37,045 bases of DNA from a virus. The DNA lies in the IMG/VR virus record IMGVR_UViG_3300025138_000124, positions 1-37,045 of that record; one strand, 5' to 3'. Within the stretch, counting starts at the first letter, position 1; the number at the start of each line of letters is the position of its first letter. A model generated the notes under the pieces. It had not been told where the DNA came from. It ran no database searches and was given only the letters and a program-made list of their open reading frames with translations. Below, piece after piece: positions 14,785-37,045 of the stretch. The position numbers and the translations under genes were made by a program.

Positions 14785-14836
14785 TTTACTTGTATTATGA
14801 ATATATACAAAAAACTAACAAAAGAAAGGGAAAAAA

Positions 14837-15070: not shown

Positions 15071-15077
15071 TATTAAA

Positions 15078-15095: not shown

Positions 15096-15118
15096 ACAAC
15101 AAAAGAAAGGGGAAAACA

Positions 15119-15579: not shown

Positions 15580-15588
15580 AGGGGAAAT

Positions 15589-20082: not shown

Positions 20083-20085
20083 CAA

Positions 20086-20286
20086 ATGGGAACATTTGAA
20101 TTAAAAGAAGGTGAAGGTTATCTTAACAGAGATAATGAGAACCCTGAGAAATTTTGGGGATCTTTTAAAATACCTAAAGACATGAAGAAAGGTGAAACAA
20201 TTAACCTAACTGAATGGATAAATACTAAAGATGATGGAAAGGTAATTCACAAATTAGTAGAACGAAAACCTAAACAACAAGTTTAG
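20086..20286 (+). CDS. Small conserved phage protein after ERF (66 aa)
   Basis: Reads MGTFELKEGEGYLNRDNENP, then FWGSFKIPKDMKKGETINL and a short Lys/Gln-rich tail. The beta-rich short domain resembles a family often beside ERF genes; no function is known. Ribosome site AAGGAGCTAACAA precedes ATG. It is probably an accessory of the recombination operon, inferred. Confidence 0.65.
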   Translation: MGTFELKEGEGYLNRDNENPEKFWGSFKIPKDMKKGETINLTEWINTKDDGKVIHKLVERKPKQQV

Positions 20287-20296
20287 TTTTACTGAT

Positions 20297-20348
20297 ATAG
20301 GGGTGGTGGTATTCTTTTTTCCCTTGAGTCGTTGTTCACTACCCCTAT
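20297..20348 (+). promoter_or_regulatory. Long hairpin ending just before a start codon
   Basis: ATAGGGGTGGTG (20297-20308) pairs with CACTACCCCTAT (20337-20348) over 12 positions with one G-U pair, enclosing a 28-base loop. The following TTTTATT is a weak U-tract, so it may be a leaky terminator. The hairpin ends six bases before the ATG of the next gene, covering the place where a ribosome site would be. Confidence 0.6.
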
Positions 20349-20354
20349 TTTATT

Positions 20355-20567
20355 ATGAAGATATTTTTTTTATTTCTTTACATGACTACTGGAGGAACGA
20401 CTTACGCATTAAAGAAAATTCCAATAATGAGTGCTACATCTTTAACTTGCAAACAAGCATTAAAAAAGAACGCAGTAATAGAACATGAGCCACATGGAGT
20501 TAGATATAAAGGACAAAAAGTATTTAAGTATTATTGTAGAACTTCATCAGGAGATTGGGTTCAATGA
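20355..20567 (+). CDS. Small secreted-type protein (70 aa)
   Basis: The N-terminus MKIFFLFLYMTTGG resembles a signal peptide or membrane anchor, and the rest (LTCKQALKKNAVIEHEPHGV, VFKYYCRTSSGDW) has two Cys residues that could pair in the periplasm. No ribosome site is seen before 20355, because the upstream hairpin occupies that region. A later ATG is possible but not better supported. No family recognised; the end overlaps the next gene (ATGA). Confidence 0.55.
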   Translation: MKIFFLFLYMTTGGTTYALKKIPIMSATSLTCKQALKKNAVIEHEPHGVRYKGQKVFKYYCRTSSGDWVQ

Positions 20568-20710
20568 ACGACAGAGGTTATAACGATTTAGAAGAAACAA
20601 TAGAAAGATTAGAAAAGAAAATTTATGAGTTAGAAAAAAAAATAGATTTAAAAGATGAGGAGATACAAATATTAAATATACAATTAACAAAAAAGGAGAC
20701 ACATGAGTAA
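20564..20710 (+). CDS. Coiled-coil protein (48 aa)
   Basis: Begins MNDRGYNDLEETIERLEKKI and continues YELEKKIDLKDEEIQILNIQ in clear heptads, ending KKETHE. It overlaps the upstream TGA and the next gene's ATG by a few bases, so it is translationally coupled. A short parallel coiled coil; function unknown. Confidence 0.65.
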   Translation: MNDRGYNDLEETIERLEKKIYELEKKIDLKDEEIQILNIQLTKKETHE

Positions 20711-21041
20711 AGATGATAATATACAATGGATAGACATAGGGGATAAATTAACAAAACAAATGCTAAAGAATAAGCAAAAGGAATATGGAAACTTTACTAA
20801 CAACTCTTATGTTATAGCCAATTTTATACAAAGCACATTAGAAGTTATTAATAAAAAATCAATCAAAGTACCAGTAACTATTGTTCCTCAACTTATGATT
20901 GTACTTAAACTTACAAGAACAATAGATGATGGAAGTAAGCAAAACTTATATAAAGCTGACACACATAACGATATAAATGGATATAATCATCTGTTAAAAA
21001 TAATGATGCAGGAATTGAAGGAGGATAAAAATGGCAAGTAA
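20703..21041 (+). CDS. DUF6378-like phage protein (112 aa)
   Basis: KQKEYGNFTNNSYVIANFIQ, then VPQLMIVLKLTRTIDDG and DTHNDINGYNHLLKIM match the pattern of the DUF6378 family (YGxxxxNxxxIAxxxxxxL, K(L)xR, DxxxDxxGY), short proteins with unclear function common in phage early regions. It has AAAGGAGACAC before ATG. It overlaps the winged-helix gene by 11 bases. Family identification is by pattern memory. Confidence 0.75.
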   Translation: MSKDDNIQWIDIGDKLTKQMLKNKQKEYGNFTNNSYVIANFIQSTLEVINKKSIKVPVTIVPQLMIVLKLTRTIDDGSKQNLYKADTHNDINGYNHLLKIMMQELKEDKNGK

Positions 21042-21300
21042 TGGTAAGGTTTTTTATAGTCCACAGATAAAAAAGATTATAAATTTTATGAATAATTATT
21101 ATGAAGAAAATGAATGCTATCCTAAACTACATGAGATAGGTGTTGAATTAGATGTTACTAAACAAAGAATAGGTATCTTAATGAAAGACGCATTGAGACT
21201 AGGATTGGTAAAATCAAATAATGTATTTATGAGAAAATATAGCTTGATTAAATTATCAAAAAACAGTAAATTGAAAGTCAATAATTACTATGAGTTGTAA
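21031..21300 (+). CDS. LexA-type winged-helix protein (89 aa)
   Basis: The residue pattern PQIKKIINFMNNYYEENECY, KLHEIGVELDVTKQRIGILM and DALRLGLVKSNN matches the N-terminal DNA-binding domain of LexA-type repressors (helix, P-tt-EI-x-x-L-V-t, then the wing). No LexA peptidase domain follows, so it is a stand-alone DNA-binding domain, possibly a regulator of early or host promoters. Ribosome site AAGGAGGATAAAA precedes ATG. It overlaps both neighbours. Confidence 0.75.
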   Translation: MASNGKVFYSPQIKKIINFMNNYYEENECYPKLHEIGVELDVTKQRIGILMKDALRLGLVKSNNVFMRKYSLIKLSKNSKLKVNNYYEL

Positions 21301-21517
21301 AAAAATATACAATATGGAAATGGCAGTAATTATGGAGGAGGATTTTGCAACTGTTGAGGAAGCTGCAAATCAAAAGATGCCTTCAACTAAGGCGTTTGTA
21401 AGTAGAGTTAGCGACATGAAGTTGATTAACTCTCTTGTAAAAAAAAAGGAGGATAATGATGGAGAACATCAGAAGTCGTCTGCAGAAGCTGATGGACAAA
21501 CAGAGGGAAAAAAGTGA
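21290..21517 (+). CDS. Early protein (75 aa), unknown
   Basis: Begins MSCKKIYNMEMAVIMEEDFA and ends GQTEGKK, acidic then basic. The core VEEAANQKMPSTKAFVSRVS looks helical. Start at 21290 overlaps the preceding gene; an inner ATG at 21314 (MEMAV) is also possible. The 3' end overlaps a 54-aa gene in another frame by 59 bases. Function not recognised. Confidence 0.5.
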   Translation: MSCKKIYNMEMAVIMEEDFATVEEAANQKMPSTKAFVSRVSDMKLINSLVKKKEDNDGEHQKSSAEADGQTEGKK

Positions 21518-21623
21518 GAAGTATGTCCAAGCAGTACAAGAAGCTAATAAATTAAAAGCTGAAAGTTATAGCTTATATTTAAAAGTTTCAGAATGCAGAG
21601 AACAATTAATGACAAATAGGTAG
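21459..21623 (+). CDS. Small basic coiled-coil protein (54 aa)
   Basis: Starts MENIRSRLQKLMDKQREKSE and ends VSECREQLMTNR. It is supported by AGGAGG six bases before the second of two adjacent ATGs (21459). The helical heptad pattern (QAVQEANKLKAESYSLYLKV) suggests a coiled coil. It lies nested in the end of the previous frame, so its reality depends on the strong ribosome site. Confidence 0.6.
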   Translation: MENIRSRLQKLMDKQREKSEKYVQAVQEANKLKAESYSLYLKVSECREQLMTNR

Positions 21624-21688
21624 TCGTTAATTAACATAAACAAGTACAACATAAAGTTGCACAACAACTAGAAAGGTAAGCTGTCGTT

Positions 21689-22069
21689 ATGGGTAAAATA
21701 CAAAAAGAAAGTGATACTTCATTCAATATTCATGCTGGTAAAAGATTAAGAAAAGCTAGAATAGAATTAGGTAAAACTCAATCATGGGTTGGAGAACAAA
21801 TAAAAGTTACTTTCCAACAAGTTCAAAAATATGAAAAAGGTACTAATGGCATGAGTGGTGCTACATTAGGTAGATTGGCAATCGCTTTAAATGTAAAGGT
21901 TACTTATTTTTATGAAGGTTATGACATTGTAAAAGGTGTAAGTAGCTTTTCATATAAAGATAATCCACCTGAATTACATAGGGGTAATCAAGTTAAGAAT
22001 GAAGCTATGTACCCTGACCCTCAACAAACACCATTGTTGAATGGTACTAATATTAAAATAGGATATTAA
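21689..22069 (+). CDS. XRE/Cro-CI-type transcription regulator
   Basis: A 126-aa protein with a helix-turn-helix at ~16-78: GKRLRKARIELGKTQSWVGE, FQQVQKYEKGTNGMSGATL, then LAIALNVKVTYFYEG. This arrangement (FQQxQKYExGxNxxS...LAxALxVxVxxFxEG) is typical of alphaproteobacterial XRE regulators. The C-terminal tail (HRGNQVKNEAMYPD, then INGTN-like end) is short, so there is no peptidase domain. Last gene of the early region, followed by a terminator. No integrase or second repressor is present, so it more likely switches early to late expression than keeps lysogeny. Confidence 0.85.
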   Translation: MGKIQKESDTSFNIHAGKRLRKARIELGKTQSWVGEQIKVTFQQVQKYEKGTNGMSGATLGRLAIALNVKVTYFYEGYDIVKGVSSFSYKDNPPELHRGNQVKNEAMYPDPQQTPLLNGTNIKIGY

Positions 22070-22075
22070 ATTAAT

Positions 22076-22103
22076 AAGGCGATCAGAAATGGTCGCCTTT
22101 TTT
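22076..22103. terminator. Convergent rho-independent terminator
   Basis: AAGGCGATC (22076-22084) pairs with GGTCGCCTT (22091-22099) over nine positions with one G-U pair and a six-base loop; T's follow at 22098-22103. It ends the early region on the plus strand, while the stop of the minus-strand late operon overlaps it (22102). Reverse use is weaker, with only a short T run. Confidence 0.85.
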
Positions 22104-22287
22104 ATATCTGTTCTAAACTTCTATTTTCATCATCTTTTTTCATACAAGAATAATGAGCTGGTTCTTTAGTTGCAAAAATAACAAAGGCTTCATCAGATAT
22201 AATCATTTGATCACAATATTTACATAGACCAACATCTCTAATAATACCTCTAGTATTTTTCTTCCAAGTTTTTTTATGTCTTAGCAT
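22102..22287 (-). CDS. Small zinc-binding-type protein (61 aa)
   Basis: C22-x2-C25 and H45-x2-C48 (LCKYCDQMI ... EPAHYSCMKK) form a treble-clef-like or C2HC metal site, with a basic N-terminus (MLRHKKTWKKNTRG). It is the last gene of the late minus-strand run. Its start overlaps the preceding gene by 14 bases. No specific family; a nucleic-acid or protein-binding zinc protein is inferred. Confidence 0.7.
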   Translation of the reverse strand: MLRHKKTWKKNTRGIIRDVGLCKYCDQMIISDEAFVIFATKEPAHYSCMKKDDENRSLEQI

Positions 22288-22513
22288 AGTTTGGTTTTTT
22301 TCCTTTTCTAGTTTTTCTTTCTGCTGTTTTTTTTCTTGATACAGCAGCTCTCCTTTGACTTGAACTCATGGATCTAGCTTTAGATGACTTAACACATTTA
22401 GGATAGTTCTTTCTTTTCTCACCCTTTGATCTTCCACATGGAGGAAAACCACCACCTTTTTTAGGATTAGCAATATCAACCCACTTTTCTGATGTCCATT
22501 TTCTTAATGACAT
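22274..22513 (-). CDS. Basic Gly/Lys-rich protein, DUF5872-like (79 aa)
   Basis: Begins MSLRKWTSEKWVDIANPKKG, then FPPCGRSKGEKRKNYPKCVK and KARSMSSSQRRAAVSRKK. This W-S-E-K-W-V-D-I ... CGR ... YPKC pattern recalls the DUF5872-type proteins of aquatic phages and large viruses; function unknown. Two Cys sit in the conserved block. It shares TAATG with the upstream gene. The DUF number is from memory. Confidence 0.7.
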   Translation of the reverse strand: MSLRKWTSEKWVDIANPKKGGGFPPCGRSKGEKRKNYPKCVKSSKARSMSSSQRRAAVSRKKTAERKTRKGKKPNYAKT

Positions 22514-22650
22514 TATCTTTTCTTTTTATTTTTCTTAGGTTTTATTCTACCACTACATACACCTGAAGCATACATATTTGCATAAGCTGAAGGATATACC
22601 TTGAACTTTCTTTTAGCAGCAGCTTTACCTCTTGCACATAATTTAGCCAT
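22513..22650 (-). CDS. Basic mini-protein with YPSAYAN motif (45 aa)
   Basis: Starts MAKLCARGKAAAKRKFKVYP and ends IKPKKNKKKR. The central KFKVYPSAYANMYASGVCSG is a recurring motif of tiny proteins in marine phages and some large eukaryotic viruses. Ribosome site GGAGGGAAAAATATT precedes ATG. TAATG overlap to the next gene. Function unknown; DNA binding is suggested by charge. Confidence 0.75.
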   Translation of the reverse strand: MAKLCARGKAAAKRKFKVYPSAYANMYASGVCSGRIKPKKNKKKR

Positions 22651-22694
22651 AATATTTTTCCCTCCAACAACCCAGCTTAATGAATAAGCTACAC

Positions 22695-22775
22695 CTAGTA
22701 TTTACTTTTTAATTTTTTATTTTTCTTCTTCTTCTTTTTATTTTTATTTTTTTTCATTACTTTTTTTCCGTACAT
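22695..22775 (-). CDS. Lysine-rich micro-protein (26 aa)
   Basis: Reads MYGKKVMKKNKNKKKKKKNK and ends KLKSKY, with 16 Lys in 26 residues. The ribosome site AGGAGAAAACT before ATG is excellent, which argues for translation. In the DNA it appears as a long oligopyrimidine tract. It is unlike ordinary folded proteins and may be a counter-ion for packaged DNA or a translated leader; both are inference. Confidence 0.5.
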   Translation of the reverse strand: MYGKKVMKKNKNKKKKKKNKKLKSKY

Positions 22776-22790
22776 AGTTTTCTCCTATTG

Positions 22791-23030
22791 TTACCAGTTT
22801 TTGCAAGACCAATATCTTGCACTAAATTTATCATTAGCAGTATCACATCTATGTCTTGCTCTAAATGATTTTCTTCTTGCAGGATTGTTTTTTTTAATTG
22901 TCATATTAGCATCCCCATATCTAATAATCTTTTCTTTACCATCTTTACAAGCCTTAACAACAAACTTCTTACCACCTGATATTTGTCTTTTAGGTGAGTT
23001 GCATTTCATTTTAGCTTTGTTTATTGCCAT
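22791..23030 (-). CDS. Basic Cys-containing conserved phage protein (79 aa)
   Basis: Begins MAINKAKMKCNSPKRQISGG, then KFVVKACKDGKEKIIRYGDA, KKNNPARRKSFRARHRC and ARYWSCKNW. It resembles a compact family seen in cyanophages and other aquatic viruses (KVKxCxxGxEKxIRFG ... RRxSFRARHxC ... YWSCxxW), often listed as DUF6321. Four Cys residues at conserved positions suggest a metal site. The start overlaps the endolysin gene by 10 bases. Family number is from memory. Confidence 0.7.
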   Translation of the reverse strand: MAINKAKMKCNSPKRQISGGKKFVVKACKDGKEKIIRYGDANMTIKKNNPARRKSFRARHRCDTANDKFSARYWSCKNW

Positions 23031-23479
23031 ACCTTATAACCTTCGCCTTTATTTTTAGTTAAAGATTGTTTTCTGTTAGTGCCATCTCTTTTAAAACTAA
23101 CATGAATCCAACCACTATCAGGAATACCATCTTCATAATATTCTAATATCAGTTGGTCAAAGTCAAAGTTGTTCTTAATATGTGAAGCTAAATTTTTATT
23201 ATCAAAACCTGAAATTTCAAAGTCTACAGCTTCGCCTTTACAATGTTGTGATTTAGAAGATGATCCTATAGCTTCTGATAATTTTTCTGATCTAAAACCT
23301 GAGCTAATACTTACAGGTCTTGACTCATAATATTCTCTAAGTGGTTCTAGTATGTTTTCACATAGAGCTTTTAAATTTTCTATTTGTTCTTCATTAGGTG
23401 TGTTATCCAAGCCAAGCCTTGAAGCTGTACCTGAATTAATCATCTCTTGTAAGGAGAAATGTTTAGATATTTGTGTCAT
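23021..23479 (-). CDS. Endolysin, M15-type D-Ala-D-Ala peptidase
   Basis: A 152-aa protein. Residues 59-64 (SSGFRS), H79 and D86 in SQHCKGEAVDFEI, E113 and H126 in GWIHVSF give the zinc and catalytic residues of the M15A family. The N-terminus ISKHFSLQEMINSGTASRLG, with EEQIENLKALCENILEPL, is standard. It cuts peptide stems of peptidoglycan; no signal peptide is visible, so it needs a holin. It belongs to the lysis set with the putative holin about 0.6 kb upstream. Its start lies three bases past the preceding small gene's stop (overlap ATGA-like). Confidence 0.92.
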   Translation of the reverse strand: MTQISKHFSLQEMINSGTASRLGLDNTPNEEQIENLKALCENILEPLREYYESRPVSISSGFRSEKLSEAIGSSSKSQHCKGEAVDFEISGFDNKNLASHIKNNFDFDQLILEYYEDGIPDSGWIHVSFKRDGTNRKQSLTKNKGEGYKVWQ

Positions 23480-23634
23480 ATAAAATACTTTCTATCATAT
23501 TCAACAACTTTCCATTGAATAGATTTTTTAAATTTATTTCGTTTACCATAATCTTCAGCTTCCTTTTTACTACTCCAAACCTCATTTGTAAAGATTTTCC
23601 ATTGATCGTCTTGAAACCAAATTAAAGAAAACAT
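23476..23634 (-). CDS. Small late protein (52 aa), unknown
   Basis: Begins MFSLIWFQDDQWKIFTNEVW and ends VEYDRKYFI. It shows W-containing beta stretches and a helix (SSKKEAEDYGKRNKFKK) like the small early protein at 15708-15878. Its ATG overlaps the previous TAA; its TGA overlaps the endolysin start. No family recognised; location in the lysis cluster. Confidence 0.6.
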   Translation of the reverse strand: MFSLIWFQDDQWKIFTNEVWSSKKEAEDYGKRNKFKKSIQWKVVEYDRKYFI

Positions 23635-26294: not shown

Positions 26295-26643
26295 AATTAA
26301 CCATCAATAATTTTATGCCTAATTTTTTTTGTTCTTTAGTTGGACTTCTAAAAATTTTGCGTTTATTTTTTAATGCCTTACCTTTGAAATTATATCTATA
26401 GGTATTTGTTTTAATGTCTAGTAACTGTATTTTACCATTTTTATCTACAATAACAATATCAAATGGACAATGTGGATCGCATGATTTTGCTACATAATAA
26501 CCAGCTTTTGTTAGTTCTGATATAGCATGGTACTCACTAGCAGTTCCTTTAATGGAAGTTTTCTTTTGTCTTTCAGATATTAACTTAGAAGATTTATGAT
26601 TAGATTTACTAAGCCTGATAGACTTATTGTTAGAATCACCCAT
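26281..26643 (-). CDS. PD-(D/E)XK endonuclease-like protein (120 aa)
   Basis: KGTASEYHAISELTKAGYYV (E37), HCPFDIVIVDKNGKIQ (D62) and LLDIKTNTYRY (D76-I-K78) match the minimal PD-(D/E)XK core used by group-I-intron-type and Holliday-junction endonucleases. The N-terminus is basic and probably disordered. The start has no dedicated ribosome site, but it overlaps the 68-aa gene by 64 bases in another frame. A late nuclease in an operon of particle and lysis proteins could resolve DNA junctions before packaging or degrade host DNA. Both are inferred. Confidence 0.7.
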   Translation of the reverse strand: MGDSNNKSIRLSKSNHKSSKLISERQKKTSIKGTASEYHAISELTKAGYYVAKSCDPHCPFDIVIVDKNGKIQLLDIKTNTYRYNFKGKALKNKRKIFRSPTKEQKKLGIKLLMVNYEDK

Positions 26644-26786
26644 ATAATTTTATATATATTATTTACCTTTATATCAAGGTGTGCCAAGTGATTATCTTTA
26701 ATGGTGTTGATCTTTTCATGCACAAGTTTTATTTCGCCTTGAAGTTTAATTATCTCTTGAGAATTTTTTTGCGATTGAGTAGTCAT
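26580..26786 (-). CDS. Membrane-tail coiled-coil protein, XhlA-like (68 aa)
   Basis: N-terminal coiled coil (EIIKLQGEIKLVHEKINTIK), then a C-terminal membrane helix at ~47-67 (IIWVILTISLSGLVNLII), as in XhlA/hemolysin-type phage lysis accessories. It starts just after the large internal virion gene (two bases) and overlaps the nuclease-like gene. Function inferred from topology. Confidence 0.65.
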   Translation of the reverse strand: MTTQSQKNSQEIIKLQGEIKLVHEKINTIKDNHLAHLDIKVNNIYKIIWVILTISLSGLVNLIINLLS

Positions 26787-26788
26787 TA

Positions 26789-29700
26789 TTATTTTTTTTG
26801 GAACTCCAATATTAAATTATTTAAGTAATCTTTTCCTATTATATCGTTTATTACAGCTCTTTGTGATTTAGGAATATTGTTTAATTGATACTCCATTAAA
26901 TAAGGAACTAAAGAAGCGTCAGATTGTAATTCTTTTGTAGTTTGTTTTTTAAATTGTTTTATGCTTTCTTTGATTGTGTAATATTGTAAACTCAATGGTA
27001 AAGATTTATAGGCATCAGTTTGAACTAATTCAGATAATTTATTATGAACTAATGGAGCAAATACATTTTTGTATGCTCTGTCTAATACTGGTATTCCTGT
27101 GCTTTTAAATATTTCACTATAGGTAAAATTCAATCTATCTAATTCTTTTTCAGCAGCATTTTTATCTTGTCTAACTGTAACACCAGTTAATTCTGCTAAA
27201 ATAGGATTAGGATTTTTTAAAGGTCTTGCAACATATTTTCCTGTTTTTTCATCTAGCACAGCATGAGTAATAGATGTTAAATCTTGAAGTTCTCCAGGAT
27301 TAAATATGGCTTTAAAGTTATTTACTATTGATACTCTAGGATCTAGCTTAGCGTTTTCTAAAGTGGAAGTTTTTGTATCTTTTGCTGCTTGAATATTGCC
27401 ATCAGAAGCATCAAGAAATCCCATGTAAGTTTTAAATGGTGTTAAGTATTGAGCAGCAATTTTACCAACAAATTCATTCATAGCCCTATATCCTTTATTA
27501 GTTCCAAATCCTCCTACTGAATTTACCATTTGATCCACTAAATACAAACCAGTTCCACCCCTAGTTCCTGCAAATACTTTTGCAAATTCTTTTACATTAA
27601 AAGTTTGCTTAGTTAAAGTTCCATTTTGTTGTCTATTAACTAAATCAGCTACATATAAATATGCTGCTAATGGGTTATAAGGAAGAACATCTATAGTTTT
27701 ATCTCCTACTTTTAATTCGTTCCATTTTTCTCCAGCAATTTTAGAATTTCTAATTTGAAAAGCAGTTCCCATTAAACCCCATCCTGCAAGTGCTTTTACC
27801 ATTCCAGTAGTATCACCTTCTTTTAATTGTCTCATAAGAGCTTTTGTATAAGCTCCTTCTGTTGAAGCAGTTAATAAGGCTATAGGTAAATCTGCTGCTA
27901 TTCTTATACCACTTACAAATGTTGGTGCAGGACTATAATCGTATAAAAATTTTAAAGAATTTACTAAGAATCTTGGAAAAGGAACTATTAAAGAAAATGT
28001 AAAAGGAACTGCATTAATAAATCCAACAAATTTCTCTCCTACACTTCCTTTTTTAGGTTGTTTGGCATAAGTCATTTCCAAAGATTGATCTATTGCTGTA
28101 CCTATATCTTCTTGTCTTATCGTTTTTAATAATTTTTCATCAGCAACTAAATCTTTTAACTTTAATCCTTTGTAAATATCAGGTCTTCCCCTAACAATTC
28201 CATCTAACGAAGAAAAGAATACAGACCTTCTTGTAATAAATTCTTGAAATCTATTAAGAAAATTTAATAAGTTTGCACCTTTCTCCATAAAAGATATAGG
28301 AGACCAACTTTCTAACATAGGTTTATTTGCAACATCAGAACTATATCTTAAAAATAAACGATCATTTTCTTTTGGATAAAATTTTAAAATATTTTCTGTA
28401 TCTTTTTTAAGTCTTGCTCTTACTGAATTTTTTTTAAAGTTTAATATGTTAGCCGATCTCCATGTATTTAAAAAACCTTCCATAGCAGTTAAGGGATTGA
28501 CTTGTCTTTGTAAAGTTTTACCACTTAGTTTTTGCCAAAGTTTATCTGCACCATATTGCATACCTTCGTATAAAACATTCATACCTACTCTTGCTTGTTG
28601 AGATATAAAGTTTCTCATAGCTGTACTCCATCTTCCAACCATAGAAGCTCTCCTAACTCCATCTAATCTTCTTCCTGCTGTAGCAAGTAATATCTCAGAA
28701 TCTAATCCTGAGTTTTTCATAGATTTAGCTAAATCTTCAGTAATCTTTCCATCACCTAAAAACTTTCCATAGTTTCTTGCTAATACACTTAATTGTTGTA
28801 AGTTTTGTGCTGAAGTTCTAGCACCTGAAACAAAATAATCTGCAAGATCAGTTTGTGTTAAGCCATTTTTTTTAAGTATAGATTGAATAGATTTAGAACC
28901 TTTTTGCATCATAACACTTTGAGATGTTAGTACATCATACATTTGCTGGCTAATTCTAATATTAGTATTTCTTGCTAAATTATTACTTTTTAATAATTCA
29001 TCAAAAAATTTAACTATTTTTTTTTGTACTGGTTGGCTTATTATATTTTCTGATATGTCATCAAAAGGATCTTTTTTAATATTTAAATTAACTTTATCTT
29101 CAAAAGATTGAGCTGTTACACCTGTGTCTTTTTTTATTTTTTCGTTTTTAATCTTTCTATCTTTATTTAATTCTTTTGCAGGAACTGAATCATCTTTTAT
29201 AATATTTGTTTTTACCCCAGCTTGTTTACCTCTAACTACAAAACTTAAAAGTTTATCAAAAGCAACACCAACAATACCACCTTCAATAGCCATTTTTAAT
29301 CTAGCTTTACCTTCTGAATCTTCATTATCAGCTTGAAGATATTCTGTTATAGGATTTGCAAGTGTAGGAAAGGCTTGTACTAAATCTGATAATCTTTGTT
29401 CGTAAGGTGAAAAAGCAAATTGAACTGCAACTTCTCCTTTTAAACTAGCTCTAAATGATTGACCTAAAAAAGTTGTAGCTTTAGGAATTTTAGTTACAGT
29501 ATTTATAGCTGATGCAACTTTACTAACTCCTAAAAAAGGAACAGCAAAACCAAGTAAGTCTCTTGATAATCCTCCACCAAAATAAGTTGGTTCTTGTACT
29601 GGATCAAGTTTAACAAATTCTAATGGTTGTTCGTCAAAAAATTTATCTCCTAAAAAATTTACAAATCCAGCAGTATTTTGTATTAAATCTCTTGCTGCAC

Positions 29701-30097
29701 CACCATAGGTTCTTTTAATTAAATTTTCGTAAAAATTTTCTGCACTATAATAACCATTATCTTCAATTATTTTTTCAGCATCAATGGGTCTATCTCCATC
29801 AAGAACAGACCCCTCCATAACATTGGAACTTGAAGTTAAATCTTTTAAAGGAACAAGATTATTGTTTTCTTCCTTTTGTTCTGATCTTAAACTTTCTAAT
29901 GAAAAAAGATTATTATTTTCTTGTTGTGGTTCTAATTTTATTTCTTTTGCAGCATCAGATATTGGGGATAATTTAATATTAGTTTCTTCTATAGGAATAA
30001 AATCTTCATCTTGAGATTCTTCTTGTAAAAGAATATTTAAATTTTTTTTTCTTTCTTCTTCTTCAAGTCTTTTATTAACTTCTTGAATACTAGACAT
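26789..30097 (-). CDS. Large ejection/internal virion protein (1102 aa)
   Basis: Longest gene of the window. The N-terminus (~1-130) is charged and low complexity (EESQDEDFIPIEETN; EEERKKNL). A mostly helical remainder follows, with hydrophobic segments near 690-750 (FINAVPFTFSLIVPFPRFLV; LPIALLTASTEGAYTKALMR) and the end IIGKDYLNNLILEFQKK. Its size and position after three other ejection-type genes fit the largest internal protein of a podovirus, pushed out with the DNA to bridge the cell envelope. No transglycosylase motif was recognised. Family is inferred from layout rather than a signature. Confidence 0.75.
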   Translation of the reverse strand: MSSIQEVNKRLEEEERKKNLNILLQEESQDEDFIPIEETNIKLSPISDAAKEIKLEPQQENNNLFSLESLRSEQKEENNNLVPLKDLTSSSNVMEGSVLDGDRPIDAEKIIEDNGYYSAENFYENLIKRTYGGAARDLIQNTAGFVNFLGDKFFDEQPLEFVKLDPVQEPTYFGGGLSRDLLGFAVPFLGVSKVASAINTVTKIPKATTFLGQSFRASLKGEVAVQFAFSPYEQRLSDLVQAFPTLANPITEYLQADNEDSEGKARLKMAIEGGIVGVAFDKLLSFVVRGKQAGVKTNIIKDDSVPAKELNKDRKIKNEKIKKDTGVTAQSFEDKVNLNIKKDPFDDISENIISQPVQKKIVKFFDELLKSNNLARNTNIRISQQMYDVLTSQSVMMQKGSKSIQSILKKNGLTQTDLADYFVSGARTSAQNLQQLSVLARNYGKFLGDGKITEDLAKSMKNSGLDSEILLATAGRRLDGVRRASMVGRWSTAMRNFISQQARVGMNVLYEGMQYGADKLWQKLSGKTLQRQVNPLTAMEGFLNTWRSANILNFKKNSVRARLKKDTENILKFYPKENDRLFLRYSSDVANKPMLESWSPISFMEKGANLLNFLNRFQEFITRRSVFFSSLDGIVRGRPDIYKGLKLKDLVADEKLLKTIRQEDIGTAIDQSLEMTYAKQPKKGSVGEKFVGFINAVPFTFSLIVPFPRFLVNSLKFLYDYSPAPTFVSGIRIAADLPIALLTASTEGAYTKALMRQLKEGDTTGMVKALAGWGLMGTAFQIRNSKIAGEKWNELKVGDKTIDVLPYNPLAAYLYVADLVNRQQNGTLTKQTFNVKEFAKVFAGTRGGTGLYLVDQMVNSVGGFGTNKGYRAMNEFVGKIAAQYLTPFKTYMGFLDASDGNIQAAKDTKTSTLENAKLDPRVSIVNNFKAIFNPGELQDLTSITHAVLDEKTGKYVARPLKNPNPILAELTGVTVRQDKNAAEKELDRLNFTYSEIFKSTGIPVLDRAYKNVFAPLVHNKLSELVQTDAYKSLPLSLQYYTIKESIKQFKKQTTKELQSDASLVPYLMEYQLNNIPKSQRAVINDIIGKDYLNNLILEFQKK

Positions 30098-30100
30098 AAT

Positions 30101-30907
30101 CTATTTAACAGGAACAAATTTATTCTTCTCTTTATTCCATCTCTCAGGTTTTGCTCCACCAACATTATATATAAGTCCGTCTTGCAATTTACTTGTATCT
30201 ATTAATCCAGTTTTCTTATCAATAGGTATTTGATTGGCATTTTTATTTGCTATTATTTCGGCTTCTGATTTAGCTCCTACCATACCAGGAACATCAAAAC
30301 CTTGAGTTTTTTTAACATAAGATGTATATAAATCTTTTTCTACAGTAGATAATTTTTTAAATGCTGCCTTAAAATTATCTCCTGATAATCCTTTTAATTT
30401 ATTAACAACTGCTAGAGCTTCTTTAGATAAAGTTGGTGTGCTTAATCTAGTTTTTAACATAGCATCAACATATCTTTCAGGAAAAGCTAAGAACATTTGT
30501 TTGTCTGATTCAGGAACTTGATCTGCGTATTTTTTAATAAAGTCTTGTTTCTTTTTTGCTGCTTGAATTTTTTTAGAACTTTCAGATAATGATAAACCTT
30601 CTTTGATAGAAGGCATAATTGCTTTACTTATATTTTCACCTTGCATACCTTTTAAAACAGCAGAACCTCCAATAGTATAGAAAGGATTTGATAAAGCATT
30701 AAACAATCCATCTGTTTCAGGTTTTGTAAAAGTATTTAATAAACCATCACCTGATTGACCACCTTGTCCAAACAAACCTTTTGTTCCTTCAGTTACATTT
30801 GTAATACCAAGATTTTTACCATCTAAATAATCTTGTTCAGATCCATCTAGCATCATACTTGGTCTTTTTCCATACATATATCTTTTATATAAATCTAAAA
30901 GTGCCAT
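30101..30907 (-). CDS. Internal virion/ejection-type protein (268 aa)
   Basis: Begins MALLDLYKRYMYGKRPSMML, Gly-rich at residues ~40-70 (GLFGQGGQSGDGLLNTF), then helical (LSLSESSKKIQAAKKKQDFI). It ends with YNVGGAKPERWNKEKNKFVP, a small beta motif seen at the ends of several phage internal proteins. It overlaps the 346-aa gene by one base and precedes the 1102-aa gene by three. Role inferred from position and low-complexity helices. Confidence 0.65.
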   Translation of the reverse strand: MALLDLYKRYMYGKRPSMMLDGSEQDYLDGKNLGITNVTEGTKGLFGQGGQSGDGLLNTFTKPETDGLFNALSNPFYTIGGSAVLKGMQGENISKAIMPSIKEGLSLSESSKKIQAAKKKQDFIKKYADQVPESDKQMFLAFPERYVDAMLKTRLSTPTLSKEALAVVNKLKGLSGDNFKAAFKKLSTVEKDLYTSYVKKTQGFDVPGMVGAKSEAEIIANKNANQIPIDKKTGLIDTSKLQDGLIYNVGGAKPERWNKEKNKFVPVK

Positions 30908-31947
30908 TAAATTAATCCTTTATTTCTTGCATCTTGAAATATCCCATAAGAAGCAAAACTTGTTTGGGGTGATGCGATTGTTGTTGTTACATTTTGTTTT
31001 GCCATATCGTATTTGCTCATTATATCTGCTCCTACAGTACCGATAGTCTGACCAAAGAAAGTATCAAATACTGAAGTTGGTGTAGATTCTCCACTTATTA
31101 ATCCAGGTGCTTGAGATATATATTGATTAATATTTTGTCTTGTATCTCCACCTAAAGTTTGTCCTCTTAAATAATCTTCAGTTGTTAATATTCCACCTGA
31201 GTCAGCGTAAGTTGGACTTAATCTTGTACCATCATATCCTAATGCTTTCAATGCTTGATCATTCTTATAAGCATCTAATCCTGATTTTACCACAAGACTT
31301 GTTAAAGACAAACCTGATTTTGCAAATGTTTTAATAGGATCGTCTGCCAATGTATCAAGATAAGTAGATGATTCAGGATCTATTTGACTTGTATAATCTT
31401 GTAATAAAGGATCATTTTTTAAGTTTTCTAATGAACCTGAAAGATTAGTTTCTAAATATGTTTTAGCTTCCTGATCTACATTAGGTATGCCAATCCCTCT
31501 TTCTGAATTTGATATACCTTGAAGTTGGTTAAGCATATCTACTTTAGCTTTATCAGATACAGTAGAGTCTAATAAGTAACCTTTAATGTTAGCTGTGTTA
31601 TATTCTAAACCACTAACTGTTCCTGCTCCTTGAGTTTCAACTCCAGTAAATTTTCCTGTGCCTTGTTCAAATGTTGGAACAGCTCTTGTTTCAATTCCTT
31701 GATAGGCTTGTGTTTCGTAATCTTGTAAATTAATTTGTTCTTGTGTTAATGCTGCTGCGTCTGCTGCTCTTTCAGCTCCAGCAGTATTCATTATCTCATT
31801 ATAAGTTTCTTGATCTCCACCTGAACCACCTTCAGCTACAGAAAAATCACTAATAGATTCTAAGGAATCACTATAAGCAGCAGATTCATAATCATAAGAT
31901 GCAGATGATGATGAACTACCTGAGTCTGAACTTGAACCTGAACTCAT
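30907..31947 (-). CDS. Internal virion/ejection-type protein (346 aa)
   Basis: Starts with a Ser-rich stretch (MSSGSSSDSGSSSSSASYDY), then Glu/Gln/Ala-rich helical segments with GGSGGDQETYNEIMNTAGAE and ALTQEQINLQDYETQAYQ. It ends with FASYGIFQDARNKGLI. A disordered N-terminus plus helical bulk is typical of podovirus ejection proteins. Ribosome site AAGGAGTATTA precedes ATG, contributed by the end of the tiny TM gene. The family is not named; the role is inferred from the cluster. Confidence 0.65.
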   Translation of the reverse strand: MSSGSSSDSGSSSSSASYDYESAAYSDSLESISDFSVAEGGSGGDQETYNEIMNTAGAERAADAAALTQEQINLQDYETQAYQGIETRAVPTFEQGTGKFTGVETQGAGTVSGLEYNTANIKGYLLDSTVSDKAKVDMLNQLQGISNSERGIGIPNVDQEAKTYLETNLSGSLENLKNDPLLQDYTSQIDPESSTYLDTLADDPIKTFAKSGLSLTSLVVKSGLDAYKNDQALKALGYDGTRLSPTYADSGGILTTEDYLRGQTLGGDTRQNINQYISQAPGLISGESTPTSVFDTFFGQTIGTVGADIMSKYDMAKQNVTTTIASPQTSFASYGIFQDARNKGLI

Positions 31948-31956
31948 TAATACTCC

Positions 31957-32067
31957 TTATAAGATTATTGAAATACAGAAAAGAATAAATAAACCTATTA
32001 AAAATTTTGATGGATGTTTTTGTATGTAAACATCAAAGTTGTAATATAATTTTTTTAATTTATCCAT
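31957..32067 (-). CDS. Small membrane protein (36 aa)
   Basis: Reads MDKLKKLYYNFDVYIQKHPS, then KFLIGLFILFCISIIL, a single C-terminal membrane helix. Its ATG overlaps the stop of the 237-aa gene (TAATG). Its stop is 9 bases before the next start, and it provides that gene's ribosome site. Function unknown; a tail-anchored accessory of DNA entry is possible. Confidence 0.5.
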   Translation of the reverse strand: MDKLKKLYYNFDVYIQKHPSKFLIGLFILFCISIIL

Positions 32068-32780
32068 TATAATAATCCTCCTAAGTAACCAAGTCCTGCT
32101 CCATATAAAGCACCCATTCCTCCACCTAGTCCATAACCTATAGCACCACCACCTAAAGCAGTTGTCATAGGATTAGCTTGTGTTTGTGTTTGTTGGCTTT
32201 GTATTGGAAAACCTGAAGCTATAGGTGAAACGATACCAGCGTATTGTTGTAAATTTTGAAAAGGAGATAACTGAGCTTGACTTTGTAGTTGTTCTAATTG
32301 CTGTCCTGTTTGAACTAAACTTGGTGCTGATCTTGCTACACCTAATTGTCTTGCTCTTTCTGCTTCAGAAGCATTAAAGGCATAAGGTAATGCAGCTTGT
32401 GCAACTTGTGTTGCTACTTGATTTTGCATCATTGGTGAACCTGGTGTTCTTCCTGCACCTGAAAATTGTTGTGCAACATTAGTATAAACATTTCCTGCTG
32501 CTTGTTGAATTAAAGGATTTAAATAAGGATTAGAATAATTACCAGCTAAAGTATCTTGTAGTTGTTGTTGTGCTGCTGTTCCTAAAGTCTCTTGTTGTGC
32601 AAGTCCTGTTAAAGTTTGTTGTGTTGGAGCTACATAACCACCTACACCACTTCCATAAATATTACCTGCTTCAGATATAATCTGATTTAATGCTGGTTGT
32701 GCTGCTGCGTAAGGTTGAACATTTGTTTGTACTGTTCCTGAACCTCCTGAACTTCCTCCACTTGATCCTCCAAAACTCAT
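32067..32780 (-). CDS. DNA-ejection/injection-type protein (237 aa)
   Basis: Gly/Ser-rich start (MSFGGSSGGSSGGSG), then Ala/Gln-rich helices: YSNPYLNPLIQQAAGNVYTN, SGAGRTPGSPMMQNQVATQV, and ALPYAFNASEAERARQLGVA. The layout of a NPYL-type motif, followed by a GRxGS loop and ER-containing helix, then a Gly-rich membrane-like C-terminus (GGGAIGYGLGGGMGALYGAG), matches ejection proteins of P22 gp7 or N4-like type in many podoviruses. It begins after the GNAT-like gene. Role inferred from family resemblance. Confidence 0.75.
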   Translation of the reverse strand: MSFGGSSGGSSGGSGTVQTNVQPYAAAQPALNQIISEAGNIYGSGVGGYVAPTQQTLTGLAQQETLGTAAQQQLQDTLAGNYSNPYLNPLIQQAAGNVYTNVAQQFSGAGRTPGSPMMQNQVATQVAQAALPYAFNASEAERARQLGVARSAPSLVQTGQQLEQLQSQAQLSPFQNLQQYAGIVSPIASGFPIQSQQTQTQANPMTTALGGGAIGYGLGGGMGALYGAGLGYLGGLL

Positions 32781-33217
32781 TTTTTCTCCTTATTTAATTT
32801 TTTTTCTAATACTACATGGGTCATCTTGTAATCAAAGTTGTTTAATATTCTTTTCCAACCTGGTCTTGCAATTAACTCCATCATTAAACAATCTTCATCT
32901 TTAGCAAACTGTTCAATGTCTTTAACTAGGAATTGCCATTTGTGTCTTTGTCTGCCTGTCATAATATATATGTGGCAAACTTTTCCTAATTCTCTTTTGA
33001 TAAGTTCTGTAACAACTACACCAAAATATTTTTCTCTTGTCGTTTTCTTATCTTCATCCCAAAGAACCCAAACTTGAAACTTATTTTCTTTTGACTTCTC
33101 TAAAACAAAACTTGAGCTTGTTAAATTACCTGAATAAGCTAAAGCATCTTTAATATCTTTTTCAATTAATGACCAAACTGTGTCTAATTGTTCAGCAGGT
33201 ATTCTAACTAATTTCAT
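32777..33217 (-). CDS. GNAT-like protein, T7 gp13-type (146 aa)
   Basis: Short acyltransferase-like fold. LVRIPAEQLDTVWSLIEKDI begins, FQVWVLWDEDKKT and GVVVTELIKRELGKVCHIYI form the central strands, and MMELIARPGWKRILNNFDYK ends as in GNAT acceptors. T7-type podoviruses have an analogous small protein in their internal cluster. No clear acetyl-CoA P-loop (Q/RxxGxG/A) is seen, so enzymatic activity is doubtful. It overlaps the ejection gene start by four bases. A particle-assembly role is inferred. Confidence 0.7.
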   Translation of the reverse strand: MKLVRIPAEQLDTVWSLIEKDIKDALAYSGNLTSSSFVLEKSKENKFQVWVLWDEDKKTTREKYFGVVVTELIKRELGKVCHIYIMTGRQRHKWQFLVKDIEQFAKDEDCLMMELIARPGWKRILNNFDYKMTHVVLEKKLNKEKK

Positions 33218-33241
33218 AAATAGCTAATATCTATACTATAC

Positions 33242-33583
33242 TTAAGCACTCTTTTCGTCAAATATTTCTAATACACTTACTATTCCTGCAATATCATCAG
33301 CAGTTTGAGCTTTTAATTTTAAAACATCTCCTGACTCCAAAACCAAAGTACCTTTAACCAAATTCTCAACTGTCTTAGAAGCTAGATTAATATGAGCCAC
33401 TTCATGTTCAGCATTAGAATCAGATGCGTCAGTAGTAAATGCTTCTATTTCATTAGCACCTGAATGAATATTAGTTACCTGTATAGATTTGACTAAAGCT
33501 GTTCTATCTGTAGGACAAGTATATACAGTTGTTTTGTTTGTCGTTGTCAAATCAAACATAGCATTTTTATATATATTAGCCAT
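33242..33583 (-). CDS. Small virion protein (113 aa), tail-adjacent
   Basis: ATG at 33583 (MANIYKNAMFDLTTTNKTTV) overlaps the stop of the fibre-associated gene (TAATG) and was chosen over an upstream in-frame start that would extend a poor Cys-rich N-terminus into that gene. The core is beta-rich (YTCPTDRTALVKSIQVTNIH; GTLVLESGDVLKLKAQTADD). This is a common form of small structural protein in phage tail clusters. Specific role unknown. Confidence 0.7.
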   Translation of the reverse strand: MANIYKNAMFDLTTTNKTTVYTCPTDRTALVKSIQVTNIHSGANEIEAFTTDASDSNAEHEVAHINLASKTVENLVKGTLVLESGDVLKLKAQTADDIAGIVSVLEIFDEKSA

Positions 33584-34614
33584 TATCTTGCTGTAGCTGC
33601 TACACCATTTGATGCTACAAAAGGTTCTTCTGCAAATGCCATATAAATATAACTTCCACCAGAAGCATTCCAAGCATTTGAACTTGTACCTCTTAATTTA
33701 AAACCATTAGAAAGAAAATCAACTCCTTGTGTTGTTGAGTTTTCTTCTGGAGCTGGTTCATTAGGATAAACTCTTTTTATAGTTTCATTATAACCATCTC
33801 TTTTATTATCCCATATTATCCAATCACTTACACCACTTGTTTTTTTAGCAATAATTATAGCTGGAGAAAATCCAGTATAAATAAAACTACCATTTACATT
33901 TCCATTTCCTTTGTAGGAAGCCATAGCTGAAAAACCTTTTATTGGTGCAAAGCAGTAAGCTACATAAGTTGCACTACTACCATTTACTACATCATCATTA
34001 TTTACAGAAAAAACCGAAGATGTTGGAGTTGTTGAGTTCCATTCACTTCTTGATGTTTCTACTGCATTAGTTAAATTTAATAAAAGTCTTGAAGTGTTAC
34101 CAAGATTAGAATTATACATACACCAATGTTGTTGTGCTGATGTACTTTTTACTAATACAATATTTGGAACAACACCTAATCCATGACCAACAGTAGCATT
34201 TGAACCTGTACCTGTATAAGTTGATATTGAAAATCCTGCTGTAGTATTAACTGAAGTTGCAGTTGTGTTTATACTTCCGTCTGTGTTTGCTGAACCTGCA
34301 CCATTTGCTTTCCAGTTCCAAGAAACCATAGTTCCACTATTACCTGCACTATCACTACCTACTGTAAATCCATCACTATCAAAAGAAGTTACACCACTAG
34401 AAGTATTTTCAGCATTATCTTGGTTTGACCTAAGTCTTTTTGTTACACCTCTAACTGCATCAAATATTGTGTGATTGTTTGAATCTGACCTAGTTTTAAT
34501 CCAAACCCAATCAGGTTGAAAACCTACTCCAGTTATTGAATGTCCTGCTGAACCATTTCCTGTGTAAATTTTTGTATTAAAATAATCTTTTGGTTGAAAT
34601 GAAATATAAGCCAT
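33583..34614 (-). CDS. Fibre-associated beta-rich protein, copy 2 (343 aa)
   Basis: Repeated W-rich beta stretches: GFQPDWVWIKTRSDSNNHTI and VRGVTKRLRSNQDNA, then SFDSDGFTVGSDSAGNSGTM and SWNWKANGAG. A second similar block follows from ~130 and a third from ~227 (GFSAMASYKGNGNVNGSFIY, WIIWDNKRDGYNETIKRVYP). This pattern recurs in aquatic phage tail modules (DUF7483-like, number from memory). The C-terminal ~117 residues are paralogous to the truncated protein at 36681-37045. TAATG joins it to both neighbours. It is probably part of the receptor-binding tip or its chaperone. Confidence 0.8.
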   Translation of the reverse strand: MAYISFQPKDYFNTKIYTGNGSAGHSITGVGFQPDWVWIKTRSDSNNHTIFDAVRGVTKRLRSNQDNAENTSSGVTSFDSDGFTVGSDSAGNSGTMVSWNWKANGAGSANTDGSINTTATSVNTTAGFSISTYTGTGSNATVGHGLGVVPNIVLVKSTSAQQHWCMYNSNLGNTSRLLLNLTNAVETSRSEWNSTTPTSSVFSVNNDDVVNGSSATYVAYCFAPIKGFSAMASYKGNGNVNGSFIYTGFSPAIIIAKKTSGVSDWIIWDNKRDGYNETIKRVYPNEPAPEENSTTQGVDFLSNGFKLRGTSSNAWNASGGSYIYMAFAEEPFVASNGVAATAR

Positions 34615-35951
34615 TATCCAAACTCCTTTATGTTTTTAGTGTTAAGTGTGTAATATCCTGTTGGTACTGCATATTCCATTTTACCAACTCCATTACCATC
34701 TGCATTAGCTGAAGCTACTGCTGTTGTTCCGAAATATCCGTTACCAAAGTTCATTGAACAACTTTGTGAACCATAATGAGAAAAAGTAATTAATCTTGTA
34801 AATCCACTAGGTACATCTATTGCTCCTGTTCCTGTTGAACCTGAAGTTGGAACTCCTGAATTTTGATATGTTCCATTTTTACTAAAATATAATTTATTAT
34901 TTGTAAGGTCTAGAGCTATTCCTAAAATATCGCCAGTTGTAAAAGAATTGCCATAAGAACTAGCAGAATTAGCAATAATTTTTTGACCATTAGACCCATA
35001 ACCAATACCAGTTGAGGCATTTCCAGCAAAATTATCACCAGGACTTGTTGAATTAATATTATTCCAACTATCTGCAACTATACCAAACATAATGTTATTA
35101 CTGCCATTCCAACTATTTACTTTCATTTCAGCATACCATTTACCTGAATCTACCGCTATTGTAGAATGATAATTTTTATGACTATTACCTGTTGATGTTG
35201 CTGTTATATTGCCATTTAATAATCCAGTTGAAGAATAGTAAAGTGGATTTATTGTAGCAAAGTTATTATCAGGTGTATCTACATTTTGAGTTAGTGTTCC
35301 TGATACTGTAAAATTATTTGAGTTACCTGAACTGTCTGTACCCATAGCACCACTATTTTCAAATTTTAAAAAGAAACCATTATTTCCATAAGTTACTGAT
35401 GCTGACGACTTTGCTTTCCAAATTCCTGATGTAGCATCTACTTCACCAAAACTTGTTGGTGTATAAGCTGTTCCGTCTATAAAATTAAAGTGTGTCATAG
35501 AACCATCAAAGTAATAACTATTTCCTACAGTTGAACCTATTTTATGAACAGTATTATTTGTGTTCATATCTCTATTTTGATTTGGATAAGTTACTGATGA
35601 AAAAGTTTGTAATTCACCATTAACATAAAGTTTCATTCTGTTTGTATCAGTTGCCTGTGTTGTGTCAAAAGCAAGAACTATATGCATCCAAGCAGAAGTA
35701 TCTCTAAATCTTCTATTTGTATAAAATTCAGCAACTACACTACTGCTTACTTTTGCATTAAAATATAATTTATCTTCTGCACCTGAGTCAGCAAGAAAAG
35801 CTAAATAATCTCTATCAGTTGAACTATTAGTACCAGCACCATAAATAGAATGATTATTTGCTGTTAAACCTGACCTTTTTATCCAAGTAGAAATAGTAAA
35901 TGTTTTCCTGTTTGATGCTGTAAATGTTTTCTCTAATCTTGTTGAAGCCAT
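34614..35951 (-). CDS. LamG/SPRY tail-associated protein, copy 2 (445 aa)
   Basis: The LamG half (~1-190) includes MASTRLEKTFTASNRKTFTI, FRDTSAWMHIVLAFDTTQAT and NRMKLYVNGELQTF. The SPRY-like half (~255-390) includes GKWYAEMKVNSWNGSNNIMF, FTTGDILGIALDLTNNKLYF and SKNGTYQNSGVPTSG. The end is YAVPTGYYTLNTKNIKEFG. It is paralogous along its length to the truncated protein at 1-1314. It overlaps the next gene by one base. Likely glycan binding on the tail tip. Confidence 0.85.
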   Translation of the reverse strand: MASTRLEKTFTASNRKTFTISTWIKRSGLTANNHSIYGAGTNSSTDRDYLAFLADSGAEDKLYFNAKVSSSVVAEFYTNRRFRDTSAWMHIVLAFDTTQATDTNRMKLYVNGELQTFSSVTYPNQNRDMNTNNTVHKIGSTVGNSYYFDGSMTHFNFIDGTAYTPTSFGEVDATSGIWKAKSSASVTYGNNGFFLKFENSGAMGTDSSGNSNNFTVSGTLTQNVDTPDNNFATINPLYYSSTGLLNGNITATSTGNSHKNYHSTIAVDSGKWYAEMKVNSWNGSNNIMFGIVADSWNNINSTSPGDNFAGNASTGIGYGSNGQKIIANSASSYGNSFTTGDILGIALDLTNNKLYFSKNGTYQNSGVPTSGSTGTGAIDVPSGFTRLITFSHYGSQSCSMNFGNGYFGTTAVASANADGNGVGKMEYAVPTGYYTLNTKNIKEFG

Positions 35952-35960
35952 AATATTATC

Positions 35961-36674
35961 CTAGTTAAATTGTCCTGAGTTGTTAATTACAAAACTAAAT
36001 GTCATAGTAAACTGTCTAACAGCAGTTTGTCCTTGAGCATCTGTCGCTGTGATAGAAAAAGTTGAAGTCGTATCAGAAGTAAATTGTGTCTGTGTTCCAG
36101 CTATAGTACAAGATCCTGTGCCACTTGTAAAAGTTAATCCTGTAGGTACTGAACCTGTTGTTACTGCAAATGATGTAGCATCTGTTGCAGATAATGTAAT
36201 TGTTGGAACTGTGCTATCGCCTGAATAAATAGAACCAGCAGCAGTAGTCCAAACTGGGTCATCTGAAACTGTAAGTAAAGCACTTCCACTTCTAACAGCA
36301 GTTCCATCATTGTTTTCTACTCTTATAAAATATGTGCCATCAACTGGTAAAGTTGCTCCAGCAGTTAATGATGATGAGCTGTTAAATGATACAGATGTTG
36401 CTGGTGTAATTGCACCAGTAGAACCATTAATAAAATCTACAAAAGGAACTGATTGATAATTAGCTCCACTTATTGTTATGTTAGTTGCATTGTTACTTAT
36501 GACAGCAGGACTTATTCCTGTGATTGTAGGATAGACAACAGTTGTTATAGTAACACTTCCACCTAAAGATACTGCCGAACCATTAATTGAAATACTACTG
36601 TTTTGCAGTTTGTTATTATCAATTAAGGAATCTGCTCCTGAAACTAAACTACCTAAATCATTTGCTTTTGTCAT
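35961..36674 (-). CDS. TIG/Ig-like tail protein (237 aa)
   Basis: The N-terminus (LQNSSISINGSAVSLGGSVT) is a fibre-type beta motif. A TIG/IPT-like domain follows at ~48-135 (TITGISPAVISNNATNITIS; FINGSTGAITPATSVSF; TYFIRVENNDGTAV). A second Ig-like domain (VPTGLTFTSGTGSCTIAG; TFSITATDAQGQTAVRQF) ends GQFN. It is a paralogue of the last ~200 residues of the 992-aa fibre, including the terminal QFN. It is separated from the preceding gene by six bases and from the next by nine. Probably a short fibre or base of the second LamG module. Confidence 0.8.
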   Translation of the reverse strand: MTKANDLGSLVSGADSLIDNNKLQNSSISINGSAVSLGGSVTITTVVYPTITGISPAVISNNATNITISGANYQSVPFVDFINGSTGAITPATSVSFNSSSSLTAGATLPVDGTYFIRVENNDGTAVRSGSALLTVSDDPVWTTAAGSIYSGDSTVPTITLSATDATSFAVTTGSVPTGLTFTSGTGSCTIAGTQTQFTSDTTSTFSITATDAQGQTAVRQFTMTFSFVINNSGQFN

Positions 36675-36680
36675 AATTAA

Positions 36681-37045
36681 TTACCTTGCGTTTGCTGGTA
36701 CGTTGTTACTTCCTACTAATGGTGCTTCTGCAAATGCCATATAGATATAAGTTTGTGTGTTTTTATTATACCAATTATCATTGTTCTGTAATTTAAAACC
36801 ATTGGATAAAAAATCAGGATTAACTAAAGATGTTACCTCTGCACCAGAATCATCAGCTCTTAAAACAGCTGAACTTCCATTATAACCTAATCTTCTATTA
36901 TCAATCATTATCCAACTTTCAGCATAAGTTGAACTTTTTAACATAACAAAAGCTGGTTTAAATCCTGTGTAAATAAATGGTGCATCACCTGCTGGTTCAC
37001 CATTACCAACATAAGAACCAAATTTACTGAAGCCTTGTTTTTCTG
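36681..37045 (-). CDS. Fibre-associated beta-rich protein, copy 1 (5' end outside window)
   Basis: The open frame continues without a start to the window edge: EKQGFSKFGSYVGNGEPAGD, then APFIYTGFKPAFVML and ESWIMIDNRRLGYNGSSAVL, ending AEAPLVGSNNVPANAR. The internal ATG at 36944 is not the true start. It aligns with the last ~117 residues of the 343-aa protein at 33583-34614, so ~225 N-terminal residues lie beyond 37045. It is the missing member expected after the truncated LamG/SPRY gene at the left edge. Confidence 0.85.
   Translation of the reverse strand, partial: EKQGFSKFGSYVGNGEPAGDAPFIYTGFKPAFVMLKSSTYAESWIMIDNRRLGYNGSSAVLRADDSGAEVTSLVNPDFLSNGFKLQNNDNWYNKNTQTYIYMAFAEAPLVGSNNVPANAR

Follow-up and report, generated by a model that had tools for sequence, protein, structure and literature searches.

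Two putative three-gene fibre modules with slot-specific stalks and divergent lectin-like heads in a pelagiphage-like contig

Gene content of the locus

The DNA analysed here (the window) is a virus record of 37,045 bases (IMG/VR record IMGVR_UViG_3300025138_000124), which is linear, lacks end repeats and encodes portal, major head protein and terminase genes. It is a pelagiphage-like contig: the nearest isolate found is Pelagibacter phage HTVC106P, with about 70-73% nucleotide identity across the structural genes, and the host of the virus is therefore probably SAR11, judging from these relatives. On the minus strand, the gene order TIG/Ig, LamG/SPRY, DUF7483 is present twice, first fused to a 992-aa fibre and then as a free unit. 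The genes concerned are the following:

1314-4292, minus strand: tail fibre of 992 aa (PHROG tail-fibre families).
About 1961-1317, minus strand: TIG/Ig socket of module 1, residues 778-992 of the 992-aa fibre, ending in GGGQFN (Ig profile 5e-81).
1-1314, minus strand: LamG/SPRY head protein of module 1, with 438 aa inside the window and a C-terminus that lies outside it, completed in contig L009 (Pfam Laminin_G_3 2e-16; phrog_27411 E 2e-67).
36681-37043, minus strand: DUF7483 head protein of module 1, the final 120 aa of a protein that begins outside the window and has 352 aa in L009 (PF24299 E 4e-39).
35961-36674, minus strand: free stalk and TIG/Ig socket of module 2, 237 aa, slot-specific start MTKANDLGSLVSGADSLI, ending in SGQFN.
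34614-35951, minus strand: LamG/SPRY head protein of module 2, 445 aa (Pfam SPRY 5e-9; phrog_27411 E 7e-97; structure model, pLDDT 88).
33583-34614, minus strand: DUF7483 head protein of module 2, 343 aa, with repeats at residues 8-112, 120-224 and 226-334 (PF24299 E 1e-119; structure model, pLDDT 92; repeat test).
33242-33583, minus strand: 113-aa protein downstream of the slot, used as boundary marker and lying outside the head (syntenic with HTVC106P gp46; phrog_1276).

Module 1 is split between opposite ends of the window (1-1961 and 36681-37043). The range given for the repeated order in the initial annotation (33583-37045) takes in all of copy 2 but no more than the end of copy 1, the remainder of which is located at 1-1961. 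Since the record is linear and without end repeats, that annotation relied tacitly on the two window ends being adjacent. Contig L009, which is 99.94% identical to the window over 26617-37045 and 99.9% identical over 1-850, bridges this junction, where 762 bases are missing from the window. The whole module order is also found within one contig in the same-backbone relatives L014 and L196, and in a third, L258, it lies in one contig but is cut within the second DUF7483. The double occurrence of the order is confirmed.

The two Ig copies of the window are 43% identical (84/197, 25 SD above shuffled sequence), the LamG/SPRY copies 45% (182/404, 47 SD) and the DUF7483 copies 47% (55/118, 30 SD). 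These values rule out chance similarity and agree with the earlier statement that the copies have diverged throughout; the window does carry two different heads, as had been proposed. The shared QFN ending also proved correct, GQFN being the C-terminal end of both Ig proteins. The protein initially described as a W-rich fibre protein is DUF7483 (PF24299; 399.5 bits for copy 2 and 135 bits for copy 1, cut-off 27 bits). With respect to LamG/SPRY, Pfam calls copy 1 Laminin_G_3 and copy 2 SPRY, and both copies match phrog_27411 over nearly their full length.

Occurrence of the module in related phages

Profiles of the Ig region, LamG/SPRY and DUF7483 were used to annotate 329 loci, of which 183 with a LamG/SPRY gene remained once duplicates had been taken out. 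The exact Ig-LamG-DUF order is present twice in 14 of these 183 loci and three times in nine, further loci being cut by contig ends; as the loci were retrieved by similarity to module genes or their neighbours, these figures are counts and not natural frequencies. Altogether, two or three modules are found in more than 20 contigs. Among isolates, HTVC103P and HTVC104P carry two modules and most others one; the comparison of copy number in related genomes that the initial annotation had suggested thus gives one, two or three modules. The slot between the fibre and the 113-aa marker is occupied in relatives by two modules, by one module or by other genes. The QFN end is present in 121 of 152 Ig proteins. 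Ig is fused to LamG in L013, and LamG to DUF7483 in L029, L163 and L178; these gene fusions argue for contact between the proteins.

In HTVC106P, the slot contains other fibre genes instead of the module. Positions 19608-23503 of this phage encode two short free fibres, gp52 with a C1q-like tip and gp49 with an S74 chaperone tip, together with two phrog_9114/XkdW-like genes, gp50 and gp47, and constitute a second kind of doubled fibre module. Unrelated gene order in related genomes had been named beforehand as an observation that would speak against the duplicated module. Such an order is indeed seen in HTVC106P, but it fits a replacement of slot content rather than a refutation of the module.

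Several other arrangements were observed. In HTVC200P (MH598801, 3149-8017) there are two LamG/SPRY genes with the first DUF7483 gene between them; this gene is inverted relative to every other and extends into the end of the first LamG gene, which is shortened, possibly as a result of inversion or decay. An extra short ORF lies between two modules in L019 (2835-3197) and L228 (9242-9685); it comprises the TIG part of the socket only and ends in LLTVS. The three-module array of L211 (4955-15080) is near-identical to that of L205 (99% where compared) and several of its head genes are fragmented, which suggests sequencing errors or decay. Finally, the record of the cyanophage S-B68 of Synechococcus (MK016664) contains six separate DUF7483 matches, indicating that DUF7483 multiplication extends beyond pelagiphages.

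Conserved stalks and variable heads

Within each phage group, stalk identity over the first 40 residues is 62-97% for proteins of the same slot versus 27-35% for those of other slots; the corresponding values for the Ig domain are 66-92% and 45-58%. The slot effect is slight for SPRY and absent for LamG and DUF7483. The typical stalk starts are:

Window group, slot 2: MTKARDLANFVSG
HTVC103P group, slot 1: MPYIGRTPANAA
HTVC103P group, slot 2: MAYIGQNLDRF
Largest three-module group, slot 1: MSQIEVDKIIPQSG
Largest three-module group, slot 2: MSEVKVNKISPRSG
Largest three-module group, slot 3: MSSILKVDTIQDQ

Different heads are found on near-identical stalks. For instance, the flanks and the three stalk/Ig genes of L016 and L126 are 89-99% identical at the nucleotide level, whereas all six head genes are only 54-60% identical. 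HTVC103P and HTVC104P show the same pattern at slot 2 and, more weakly, at slot 1; both phages were isolated on the same strain, HTCC7211, yet both heads differ. The LamG 2 of the window is closest (64%) to a head carried on the fibre-fused stalk of L011, which is another phage type.

The head proteins vary together. Over 102 modules, SPRY and DUF7483 distances are correlated (rho 0.39, p 0.002), part of which could be due to linkage alone; the correlation between LamG and SPRY, which are parts of one gene, is 0.22, and Ig and DUF7483 distances are uncorrelated (0.02). Variability along the LamG/SPRY protein peaks at residues 31-75, 121-150, 286-330 and 376-390, and residues 166-225 and 406-445 are conserved. 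The two latter regions could be recombination joints.

Comparison of L009 (1-1520) with the window (850-2000) shows identity after LamG residue ~150, whereas the stalk/Ig and the LamG start that precede it in L009 are unrelated to those of the window. At this breakpoint, which is located at the start of the first joint, protein identity within LamG 1 jumps from ~45% to 100%. L009 may be a recombinant or an assembly chimera, and this single sharp breakpoint may reflect an assembly error. The breakpoint was rejected as proof of recombination because L009 starts at that stalk gene and its stalk resembles that of another phage group (85% like slot 2 of L016).

No match to a reverse transcriptase, a tyrosine integrase or a serine recombinase (PF00078, PF00589 and PF00239) was found in the record, which misses at least 762 bases; a diversity-generating retroelement or a recombinase switch was rejected on this basis.

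Structure of the head proteins

The model of LamG/SPRY copy 2 (mean pLDDT 88) consists of two beta sandwiches, LamG and SPRY, and matches SPRY domains (Ash2L, RanBP10) and, at lower rank, the LG4-5 pair of laminin. The model of DUF7483 copy 2 (pLDDT 92) is almost entirely beta. In profile comparisons, the three thirds of this protein are mutually homologous (probability 98-99%, E ~1e-14 to 1e-15; scrambled control, 0.3%). Three homologous repeats of ~105 residues, which the Pfam name does not reflect, characterise DUF7483 in general (window 36681-37043, L009, L016). No convincing match of the DUF7483 model to a solved structure was obtained, since a single weak hit, 7pln with a TM-score of 0.27, came from Foldseek and a second structure comparison gave nothing above Z 5.5; consequently, no fold is assigned. 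A chain with three such repeats could cap a trimeric fibre.

Origin and role of the two modules

LamG identity within genomes (52 pairs) has a median of 42% and reaches at most 51.5%, and the between-genome median is 41%. For DUF7483, the within-genome median is 45.5% (maximum 61%) and the between-genome median 48%. A recent tandem duplication was rejected on this similarity of within- and between-genome values. Some within-genome Ig pairs, in turn, are up to 80% identical, and sockets may therefore be more recent copies in some lineages.

In the trees, window copy 1 falls with the first module of HTVC103P-type phages and window copy 2 with the second; the genome of these phages is a different one. 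For the window and HTVC103P groups combined, slot changes number 3 on the LamG tree (shuffled mean 9.3), 2 on the Ig tree (9.7) and 3 on the DUF7483 tree (6.8), near-copies inflating this clustering somewhat. The clustering suggests that the two module lineages predate the split of these phage types or passed between them, and the slot signal kept in the LamG trees of these groups points to limited exchange between slots there. In the three-module group, slot labels cluster only weakly on the LamG and Ig trees and not at all on that of DUF7483. As the resolution of the DUF7483 tree is poor (stars on 5 of 45 branches), statements on slots are based mainly on pairwise identities.

The initial annotation had interpreted the locus as a tandem module duplication. 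Two homologous modules of one fold (45% full-length identity) are indeed present. An origin by tandem duplication within this lineage was not supported: within no genome does any LamG or DUF7483 pair look recently copied, heads look exchanged between genomes, and the two copies have their counterparts in a different genome. An older event has to be weighed separately, namely a tandem duplication in the ancestry of the phage, after which point mutations would have adapted each slot where it stands to one of two receptors, with no exchange of heads. An ancient duplication at the root is likely, and the common gene order and QFN ends, the clustering of slot labels on the Ig and LamG trees of the window and HTVC103P groups and the most similar Ig pairs are in line with this scenario. 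Nevertheless, divergence in place is unlikely, given that heads are as similar between genomes as within them, that same-slot heads are no closer than other-slot heads, whereas sockets are, and that the heads of L016 and L126 all differ despite nearly identical stalks.

Somewhat less probable still is a division of labour in which one module binds the receptor and the other functions, e.g., in assembly, capsid decoration or binding to extracellular particles. Although a related fused protein, phrog_19943, is annotated as a virion structural protein and filed under head and packaging in PHROG, the domain set and the degree of head variation are the same at both slots, and both have fibre-type stalks. 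That the fibre regions of two co-occurring phages were joined during assembly, as the break of the window inside module 1 and the identity switch of L009 within LamG 1 could indicate, is very improbable, because the link from LamG 1 to module 2 is confirmed by L009 at 99.9% and arrays of modules recur in other contigs, and for the arrangement as such it is ruled out by the isolates HTVC103P and HTVC104P.

Comparison with known systems

In Skadi (Polarivirus skadi, HTVC010P-type pelagiphages), a hypervariable lectin region has been published as an arms-race region (PMC10504331). Its positions 13,646-15,713 in Skadi-1 lie within DUF7483 and LamG/SPRY genes (13353-15730), that is, the same head pair. 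These two genes are located behind a fibre with the same Ig end, but, unlike the window, these genomes carry a single module each; the consulted passages of that paper (PMC10504331) mention neither the Ig socket nor slot-specific stalks or multiple copies. Work on metaviromic islands in marine phages shows that variation between otherwise similar genomes is greatest in fibre-tip, C1q and lectin-like genes (PMC3909814). The variable fibre/lectin genes are shared with the window, and the consulted passages of the paper do not describe repeated modules or a socket/head split.

HTVC103P and HTVC104P (GenBank MN698242 and MN698243) each contain two Ig-LamG/SPRY-DUF7483 modules, all annotated as "hypothetical protein". 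Unlike the window, they have 54-kb genomes of another type, two further genes between the modules and a short stalk instead of a long fibre at slot 1.

The branched multi-RBP complexes of E. coli phage CBA120 and Klebsiella phage RaK2 combine conserved N-terminal docking parts with variable binding parts (PMC7506556, PMC10253068). The window resembles the CBA120 type in its several RBP genes, slot-specific conserved N-termini and variable binding parts. The likeness is one of analogy: no homology was found between the window modules and the receptor-binding proteins of CBA120 or RaK2. Those phages have contractile tails and beta-helical enzymatic tailspikes, whereas the window has separate lectin-like heads on Ig sockets and belongs with podovirus-like genomes. 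Beta-helical depolymerase bodies, typical of CBA120 tailspikes, are absent from the window heads, which are LamG/SPRY and DUF7483. The modules may thus work like a CBA120-type complex without being a member of that class.

In the open-licence papers searched, a scope that makes this weak evidence, no description was found of a repeated three-gene module or of slot-specific sockets with exchangeable heads; DUF7483 is not mentioned there and "pelagiphage" and "SPRY" occur together in no single paper. What is already known is the single-copy head as a hypervariable region in Skadi, and no account of the multi-slot array was found in those papers.

Proposed function and significance

SAR11 are among the most abundant bacteria of the ocean and, to our knowledge, the receptors recognised by their phages are largely unknown. 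The reading that we favour, and consider probable, is that a virion of these phages carries several slot-specific fibres, each tipped by an exchangeable LamG/SPRY-DUF7483 head that is varied by recombination. This pattern points to a standing adhesion kit with several heads and not to genes duplicated recently.

According to this proposal, the locus would encode two receptor-binding fibres of one virion, each a three-gene module. The slot-specific N-terminus of the stalk/Ig protein presumably docks it on the tail; the stalk of slot 1 is fused to the long fibre, and that of slot 2 is short and free. The socket would be the Ig domain, whose QFN end is nearly invariant, and the exchangeable head would consist of the two-domain LamG/SPRY protein plus DUF7483, with the three repeats of DUF7483 capping a trimeric tip. 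Heads would be swapped by recombination at conserved joints, namely the Ig end, the middle and end of the LamG protein and the DUF7483 end.

The function, stoichiometry and receptors of the heads are inferred: the module proteins would form the fibre tip, both heads may be present on one virion and they would bind host surface structures, although a particle need not carry both modules. The suggestion that the two heads serve two receptors or hosts is kept conditional because HTVC103P and HTVC104P, from a single host strain, differ in both. A wider generalisation is offered tentatively, as somewhat less than an even chance: a multi-slot adhesion system of marine phages with one to three slot-specific sockets per genome, independently exchangeable heads drawn from a pool shared across phage types, DUF7483 capping a trimeric tip, and several specificities per virion.

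If two or three interchangeable heads do sit on fixed sockets, host range would evolve as heads are exchanged at individual slots, and the heads would form a countable and testable set. DUF7483 gains a proposed role and architecture, and the module array may account for assembly breaks in this part of such phage genomes.
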